A stretch of DNA of 64,000 nucleotides from Synechococcus sp. HK05. GTDB taxonomy: Bacteria; Cyanobacteriota; Cyanobacteriia; PCC-6307; Cyanobiaceae. The translations under genes and the position numbers were made by a program. Shown in pieces: positions 40,708 to 42,183 of the stretch (position 1 is the first letter of the stretch; the number at the start of each line of letters is the position of its first letter). Below the pieces are notes generated by a model, which was not told where the DNA came from, did no database searches, and saw only the letters and a program-made list of their open reading frames with translations. The DNA is taken from NCBI RefSeq assembly GCF_019104765.1, contig NZ_JAHRXJ010000002.1, positions 195,069 to 259,068 of the forward strand. The letters are read 5' to 3'.

Positions 40708-41472
40708 TCAGAGCCCCATGCCACCGAGATTGGGCTCAAGTTGCAGGCCGGTGGGAGGATTGATCACATCCATGTTGAAGATGTTCACCAGTTCCTGTTG
40801 GTTGAAGCCTGAGCCAGGGGTGAGAAGGAGGCCTGGCAGATCGCCGATCGGGTTGTTTTGCTCGGCGATGGCGTCGACGGTGCCGGGGCTCAGCTCCGTT
40901 TGGCGCAGCAGCGTGAAGCGGTCGGGATCGATCAGCAGATCACGGCTGTTGAACACGCCATCGCCGTTGGTATCGAGCTGGCTGATCCAGTCGTTCAACT
41001 GTTGACCAGTGGCCCCGCCGGTTTGACCGCCGCCGGTTTGGCCGCCACCGGTTTGACCGCCTCCGGTTTGGCCGCCTGTGCCGCCACCACCGGTGATCGG
41101 GTCGTCGCCACCATCATCAGGGCCGGGACGCTCTTGTTCGAGCGATAGATCGTGGTCAATAACCTTGTTGCGGCTGTTCTTGGTGAGTTTGATCTTCACC
41201 CGCTCGCCTGGGGTGAAGTCGTAGTCCTTGCCTTGGTAATTGAAGCTGGCATCCATCCCGTCACCGGGCAGATCTTCCACCGTCAGCCATCCTTTGACCT
41301 TGTTGCCTTTGGCCTTGAAGCTGGAGTTGAAGCTGCCGTCGTCGTTGCAGGCGCCTGAAAGATCGATGGCTTTTTTACCGCCTTTGCCTTTCGAGAATCC
41401 CTCGAAAGACCAGCCGATGCCGGCGAGGGTGTCAACATTGCCGAGGTCGCCAGAGAAACCGAAGCGTGCCAT
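40708..41472 (-). CDS. Hypothetical protein with Gly/Gln/Thr repeat and EF-hand
   Basis: A 254-residue protein of unknown family. The N-terminal ~105 residues are a Gly/Lys/Asp-rich domain (FGFSGDLGNVDTLAGIGW ... GKDYDFTPGERVKIKL) that looks beta-structured. An acidic stretch (GPDDGGDDP) leads to a low-complexity linker of GQTGG units, encoded by a 15-bp tandem repeat. Then comes an EF-hand-like loop DTNGDGVFNSRDL and a C-terminal tail with LDPN-like loops. There is no signal peptide. A perfect CRP-type palindrome lies about 100 bp upstream, and an intrinsic terminator follows. Confidence 0.7.
   Translation of the reverse strand: MARFGFSGDLGNVDTLAGIGWSFEGFSKGKGGKKAIDLSGACNDDGSFNSSFKAKGNKVKGWLTVEDLPGDGMDASFNYQGKDYDFTPGERVKIKLTKNSRNKVIDHDLSLEQERPGPDDGGDDPITGGGGTGGQTGGGQTGGGQTGGGQTGGATGQQLNDWISQLDTNGDGVFNSRDLLIDPDRFTLLRQTELSPGTVDAIAEQNNPIGDLPGLLLTPGSGFNQQELVNIFNMDVINPPTGLQLEPNLGGMGL
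41020..41079. repeat. 15-bp coding tandem repeat (four units)
   Basis: Four consecutive 15-bp units start at 41020, 41035, 41050 and 41065, each beginning GGTTTG. They follow the pattern GGTTTG(A/G)CCGCC(n)CC, with A and G alternating between units, so the array also reads as two 30-bp dimers. It encodes the GQTGG linker of the minus-strand gene and leaves the frame intact for any copy number. Confidence 0.9.
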
Positions 41473-41781
41473 GAATCTGTGGGGGGTGTGTGGTTGGGGA
41501 GGTGTGTTTTCCTCCGATGCACTTACCCTCGCTCGATCGTTGGCAGGCAGCTCTGATCGGCATCAACGCTGGCTGTGATCTTGCTCACAGGGAGGCCGAA
41601 GCCCTATCGCGCTCAGGCTCTGAAGCGGTTGGTGGTGTCTCAATGCAAGCGAAGCCAGGAGAACCGACCCGAACGCGGCCGTTCTGGCTGCCTCCACTCG
41701 CTCATTCACGTCAGCAGCTCACCGCTCTGAGCCATTCGAGCTCGTGTCGCGATCAATCCTTTGTGAGATGAGCGTATTCGA
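41473..41781. other. Intergenic region upstream of the Ca-binding repeat gene
   Basis: A 309-bp stretch with no supportable gene; a 93-codon plus-strand frame here has no family features. It contains the CRP-type palindrome at 41573-41590 and is flanked by the RiPP-like peptide gene, which is transcribed towards it. Confidence 0.7.
41573..41590. promoter_or_regulatory. Perfect CRP-type operator palindrome
   Basis: The sequence CTGTGATCTTGCTCACAG is an exact inverted repeat (CTGTGA-N6-TCACAG) matching the CRP/SyCRP1 consensus TGTGA-N6-TCACA. It is centred about 110 bp upstream of the start codon of the minus-strand gene at 40708-41472, a reasonable activator position. No full CRP-type regulator is present in this window. 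Confidence 0.7.
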
Positions 41782-41997
41782 TTAACGCATCACACGCCCC
41801 TTGTCAGCCTTTGAGTTTTTAGGAACCGGAAGCACATGATCCTGACTCATTATCCCGCCCGCAATGTTTGCCAGGTCTTCATCCGAAAGTGCTGTACTAG
41901 CCTTCACCGATTTTTCTGAAGAACAAGGATTGGACTCCTTGCTGAAGGTCGCTGATCCGTCGGCAATGCTTCCTGGCCTGAGTGTTTCGTCGGACAT
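41782..41997 (-). CDS. Double-glycine leader peptide (RiPP/bacteriocin-like precursor)
   Basis: A 71-residue peptide from ATG 41997. Residues 1-~47 are a leader rich in Ser, Asp and Glu that ends in ALSDEDLANIAGG, closely matching the Nif11/NHLP-type leader ending LS(D/E)E(D/E)L-x-x-(V/I)AGG. After GG comes a 23-residue basic core (IMSQDHVLPVP then a Lys/Arg-rich end) with two Ser but no Cys or Thr, so a lanthipeptide ring is unlikely. No modifying enzyme or ABC-peptidase lies in the window. Base composition is visibly more AT-rich than that of its neighbours. It is probably an accessory gene. Confidence 0.65.
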   Translation of the reverse strand: MSDETLRPGSIADGSATFSKESNPCSSEKSVKASTALSDEDLANIAGGIMSQDHVLPVPKNSKADKGRVMR

Positions 41998-42183
41998 CTG
42001 CTTGGGTTCTCGTTTTTAGAGTCCTAGCGCAGTCGCAGCAGGCATGCAACGCCGATCTCGCGCCATGCCATCGCGCCCATGGAGGGGGCAGCTTGGTGGT
42101 CTAGGCCAGCTCCACTACCCTGCGTCTGCCAGCACGTCGGACATTGGCTGGTGGCTGAAAGCCAACAGAGATACGGGACTTCA

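Follow-up and report, generated by a model that had tools for sequence, protein, structure and literature searches.

Results

A short open reading frame beside yjbQ

Between yjbQ and a minus-strand gene at 40708-41472, the window (the whole stretch of 64,000 nucleotides from Synechococcus sp. HK05 that was analysed) holds a minus-strand open reading frame whose ATG starts at 41997 and whose stop codon, included in the coordinates of Table 1, occupies 41782-41784. Its translation consists of a leader, MSDETLRPGSIADGSATFSKESNPCSSEKSVKASTALSDEDLANIAGG, and a core, IMSQDHVLPVPKNSKADKGRVMR. The first-pass annotation had described a double-glycine leader with a 23-residue basic core, and the translation bears this out and places the gene on the minus strand. 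The leader is acidic (pI 4.3), and the core (pI 10.3, charge about +2.8) contains two Ser and, as had also been claimed, neither Cys nor Thr, which excludes lanthionine. The reported AT-richness held up when checked: the gene has a GC content of 50.5% and the genome one of 64.8%, and 3.6% of 216-bp genome windows are equally low, so that the gene is AT-rich, though not extreme. Of the six possible frames, its own scores highest for codon usage (0.057 versus -0.083 to -0.273), at a level resembling that of another double-glycine peptide of the same genome, C7:68082. No match to a sigma-70-like promoter or terminator was found in the focal region.

Table 1. Coordinates of the focal gene and of related features. 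Positions without a prefix are those of the window; C4 and C7 denote contigs of the host genome, and G denotes relatives.
Feature	Position	Strand	Basis or remarks
Extra DNA holding the focal gene, probably lineage-specific	41592..42183		592 bp here, ~60 bp in G064, G134 and G281
Double-glycine precursor peptide, ORF of 71 aa	41782..41997	minus	translation, codon usage, motif beyond chance
Leader, 48 aa, ending in LSDEDLANIAGG; probably a shortened, diverged Nif11-type leader	41854..41997	minus	shuffle tests, 16 Nif11 leaders
Core peptide, 23 aa, IMSQDHVLPVPKNSKADKGRVMR; 2607 Da if unmodified, charge ~+3	41785..41853	minus	translation, properties
Weak purine-rich stretch GAGAACC 5' of the ATG, possible ribosome-binding site	42005..42011	minus	sequence
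HlyD-like gene	C7:62140-63519		exporter cassette
C39-ABC gene	C7:63473-65779		exporter cassette
ABC gene without peptidase	C7:65779-67971		exporter cassette
Double-glycine precursors near the exporter	C7:68082, 68371, 75186, 79474		L/I-12, L-7, I/V-4; Cys-free cores
Double-glycine precursors, second island	C4:218200, 219134, 219823		L/I-12, L-7, I/V-4; Cys-free cores
Exporter loci near yjbQ in relatives	G227:C422 (L185, L176); G258:C86 (L184, L172); G092:C1 (L195, L180)

The double-glycine motif exceeds chance expectation

The leader ends in the arrangement L(-12)…L(-7)..I(-4).GG, with Asp at -8, and the short reading frame thereby shows the pattern of C39 substrates (L-12, E/D-8, L-7, I/V-4 and GG at -2/-1). 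The published consensus is Leu-12-X3-Glu-8-Leu-7, and V-4, L-7 and L-12 are the residues that contact the C39 peptidase (PMC6363468). When the host genome (2,527,587 bases in 14 contigs) was scanned, the strict class II leader motif occurred in four short reading frames, compared with none in 20 Markov-simulated genomes at genome composition and none in a further 20 at the composition of the islands described below. A broader motif was found in eight reading frames against 0.10-0.15 expected; this pattern was widened after examples were known, which makes the strict motif the more reliable basis for the comparison. The motif of the focal leader is far beyond chance.

The genome encodes one C39 exporter, on another contig, and further precursors

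The first-pass annotation had noted that no exporter or modification gene lies nearby. This is true within the window, and an exporter is present on a different contig. The only Peptidase_C39 domain of the genome (C7:63569-63958, E 6.6e-36) belongs to an intact three-gene cassette at C7:62140-67971 with a tRNA-Ser just upstream. The domain carries QYEVAECG, NHF and VDP, which we take to be the expected catalytic positions (Q..C, H and D) of the family. Between them, the three genes best match the NHLM models for ABC1, ABC2 and HlyD (TIGR03794, TIGR03796 and TIGR03797 taken together), with agreeing gene order; since all three scores fall short of the curated cut-offs (552 of 853, 468 of 709 and 70 of 156 bits), we call the cassette NHLM-like.

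Along with this exporter, the genome encodes seven or more further double-glycine precursors and roughly twelve reading frames with a Nif11 domain, and the cores of all eight precursors listed in Table 1, the focal one included, are free of Cys. The annotation was to be abandoned if the genome held neither a homologous leader nor a PCAT-type exporter, or if transcription and conservation in relatives were absent. Both leaders and exporter were found, so that this objection fails on these two points; as to conservation it half applies, since the relatives hold no orthologue (see below).

The exporter has a GC content of 0.49 and the precursors of 0.44-0.58, compared with 0.505 for the focal gene and 0.648 for the genome. 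Along C7, GC drops from 0.67 to 0.46-0.58 at 62 to 70 kb and lies at 0.50-0.54 at 75 to 80 kb; the region C7:62-80 kb (L035) comprises two AT-rich blocks beside the tRNA-Ser with the exporter and several double-glycine precursors. It also encodes a histidine kinase and a response regulator (C7:76154-78311), which could serve as a sensor of one of the peptides. A second AT-rich island, C4:216-223 kb (L059, L060), contains a phage-type integrase and tandem Nif11 or Nif11-like double-glycine precursors, whose cores are all free of Cys. Among these, the Nif11 reading frame C4:218703 is degraded and has lost its normal start, and C4:219823 has a strongly shortened leader, MSEKQIKA…LQEEDLEAVTGG, that retains the motif.

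No usual modification enzyme was detected

Following the suggestion of the first-pass annotation, LanM, YcaO and radical-SAM genes were sought. The 99.97%-complete genome gave no match to LANC_like, and hence to LanM or ProcM, and none genome-wide to YcaO or SPASM radical-SAM models; nor did one stand out in the partially annotated reading frames that neighbour the focal gene, the Nif11 cluster of C4 and the exporter of C7. With Cys-free cores and none of these enzymes found, we consider it likely that the peptide is exported unmodified and unlikely that it is a lanthipeptide of the prochlorosin kind; given the Cys- and Thr-free core and the enzyme classes searched, the unmodified peptide is the simplest product. 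Of the proposed unlinked, prochlorosin-like expansion, what stands is an unlinked double-glycine precursor with a probably Nif11-derived leader; what is not supported is a prochlorosin-like expansion in the strict sense, as the core lacks Cys and Thr and no ProcM-like LanM was found in the genome.

It is conceivable that the peptide is modified before export by an enzyme of another class, such as a SPASM-less radical-SAM protein, an ATP-grasp ligase or a distant methyltransferase. Peptides with Nif11 leaders are frequently modified (PMC2887384), and the searches covered LanC, YcaO and SPASM only. A core with two Ser and neither Cys nor Thr argues against such a route, as does the lack of a candidate enzyme in the three partially annotated neighbourhoods, and we consider it improbable.

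A leader probably shortened from the Nif11 type

The earlier assignment to the Nif11/NHLP type survives in part. The Nif11 models (TIGR03798 and PF07862) do not recognize the leader, which is missing from the genome-scan listing, whereas a significant residual similarity speaks for the assignment. When the 36 residues before the motif were compared with 16 Nif11 leaders from the host genome and its relatives, the true residue order scored about 4 SD above shuffled versions (z about 4), and shuffles equalled it in 0/500 or 0/400 trials or with p 0.0025, depending on the scoring scheme. The short leaders of C7:79474 and C7:68082 did no better than shuffles in comparison with Nif11 leaders, and C4:219823 showed the same pattern as the focal leader, more strongly. 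The first seven residues, MSDETLR, resemble MSEEQLK to a degree reached by 1 of 2288 reading-frame starts in the genome. The similarity is weak but significant, and a colinear alignment has to bridge a gap of about 18 residues within the leader; we suggest that this is probably a Nif11 leader from which that many residues are missing.

These comparisons bear on two further explanations. A chance reading frame in an intergenic stretch would, like this one, be short and free of orthologues; that it should also possess a strict motif absent from all 20 simulated genomes, together with a Nif11-like leader and a rarely matched Nif11-like first heptamer, makes this account very improbable. The gene might instead be a remnant in decay: once a Nif11 precursor, it would have lost some of its leader through an internal deletion and would now be drifting, with expression and export at an end. 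The missing residues, the weak overall similarity, the absence of orthologues from the genomes and contigs searched and of a recognizable promoter, and the degraded C4:218703 in the same genome are all compatible with decay. The docking motif, in contrast, is perfectly retained, and the open frame has a better codon score than any of the other five; moreover, C4:219823 has an equally shortened leader and also keeps its motif, suggesting that shortened leaders may be functional. We regard decay as possible, though rather unlikely.

The gene probably occupies a recently altered site

Three relatives (G064, G134 and G281, read as 3-kb loci) retain the block directly upstream of the 40708-41472 gene, and in them about 60 bp separate its end from the start of yjbQ. 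In the host genome the separation is 592 bp, which places the focal gene within a segment of roughly 530 bp absent from these three. No orthologue of the protein was found in 300 genomes of the family, 390 of the class, GTDB contigs or viral contigs. A DNA search of 400 family genomes with the extra stretch returned only chance-like matches of 32-42 bp, and the one in G258 falls within unrelated coding DNA. Because the stretch is missing from three relatives and no orthologue turned up among hundreds of genomes, it appears to be a recent, lineage-restricted acquisition, for which deletion in the relatives is the formal alternative. The host genome holds no second copy of the stretch. A mobile element was considered as well and is not supported, since neither target-site duplications nor terminal inverted repeats could be recognized convincingly around the stretch.

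Discussion

The focal gene is a stray, probably Nif11-derived double-glycine precursor with a distant exporter, or a recent remnant of one. We propose, with a probability of roughly 0.6, that it encodes an unlinked substrate of the only C39 exporter in the genome and that its core is exported linear and unmodified. The last 12 residues of the shortened Nif11-type leader would form a helix that docks into the groove of the C39 peptidase through L-12, L-7 and I-4, by analogy with ComA and LahT (PMC6363468). Once the peptidase has cut behind Gly-Gly, the 23-residue basic peptide would leave through the ABC/HlyD machinery, whose genes lie at C7:62140-67971. This model presumes that the gene is expressed and its leader recognized by the exporter; the gene itself probably arrived at its site recently within the small AT-rich stretch. 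Arguments for the model are the motif, the presence of an exporter whose catalytic positions are as expected, the double-glycine precursors adjoining that exporter, the low GC content common to exporter, precursors and focal gene, and the absence of the main RiPP modification enzyme classes searched. The absence of orthologues, the location on a separate contig, the unrecognized promoter, the weak ribosome-binding site and the Asp at -8 where the consensus has Glu count against it, and the exporter may fail to recognize a leader of this kind.

Such a fate is an ordinary one, not the undescribed one envisaged by the first-pass annotation. In Synechococcus elongatus PCC 7942, the unmodified double-glycine proteins EbfG1-4 are cut and secreted by the C39 transporter PteB, and other cyanobacteria have no homologues of the mature parts (PMC4997328). 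The likeness would lie in small double-glycine proteins handled by a C39 transporter; unlike the focal gene, with its unlinked position and 2.6-kDa core, the EbfG genes adjoin pteB and yield mature parts of 6-7 kDa. Cyanobacteria commonly combine three-gene transport cassettes with diverse precursors (Wang et al. 2011, PMC3140520; PMC2887384). The host system may be grouped with the bacteriocin clusters described there (PMC3140520): it, too, has HlyD, C39-ABC and peptidase-less ABC genes with diverse short precursors around them, although the focal gene lies outside the cluster.

ComC-type pheromones and class II bacteriocins of Gram-positive bacteria combine a double-glycine leader bearing L-12, L-7 and I/V-4 with a short, basic, linear core. 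The focal peptide shares these traits and differs in that no receptor kinase or immunity gene is adjacent, whereas the C7 island does have its histidine kinase and response regulator. Precursors of the Nif11-like leader family (N11P; TIGR03798 and PF07862), which includes the prochlorosins, resemble it in the MSxExLR start, the LSDEDLANIAGG end, the short hypervariable core, the lack of linkage to an exporter and the presence of several paralogues in the genome. They differ by the 18 or so leader residues missing here, by a score that falls below the model thresholds, and by the Cys-free core in a genome in which no LanM was found.

What might the released peptide do? The core is small, basic, polar and proline-containing, so that a secreted signalling or community role, of the biofilm type, seems somewhat likelier than that of a pore-forming bacteriocin.

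The locus offers a concrete case of double-glycine precursors in a genome that has an exporter and lacks the usual modification enzymes searched for, and of a lone precursor gene at a recently altered site. Should the shortened leader still be cut, it would show how little of a Nif11 leader an exporter needs, and it would suggest that genome mining by leader models alone overlooks short-leader precursors. More tentatively, and at odds we judge to be low, we speculate that the focal leader and that of C4:219823 represent a class in which the Nif11 domain, freed from docking modification enzymes, shrank towards the part read by the exporter. Former RiPP precursors would thereby have become peptides secreted without modification, whose genes spread singly, as strays, into new places on the chromosome.

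Three other relatives (G227, G258 and G092) carry a C39 exporter gene no more than about 5 kb from yjbQ, on one side or the other, and the first two exporters have tandem short-leader double-glycine peptides in view. The yjbQ neighbourhood is therefore a recurrent host of genes for the export of such peptides, with varying exact positions. There is no support for the idea that the focal site itself was formerly occupied by a complete exporter cassette, as the cassettes of G227 and G258 lie on the other side of yjbQ and that of G092 lies upstream of the neighbouring DCC1-like gene. The exporter-linked double-glycine peptides of the genus (L187 and L189-L194) share leaders of the type SDDQAELVSGG, apparently a family distinct from Nif11 leaders, and Val, Ala, Gly and Asn are often abundant in their cores. 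The 40708-41472 gene, without a Pfam match, encodes a dockerin/EF-hand-like loop (DTNGDGVFNSRDLL). Upstream of it, at 41574-41589, stands a perfect CRP-type palindrome, TGTGA-N6-TCACA (TGTGATCTTGCTCACA). About one such site per window is expected by chance if one mismatch is allowed, so the argument for it is conservation: both half-sites are kept in G064, G134 and G281.
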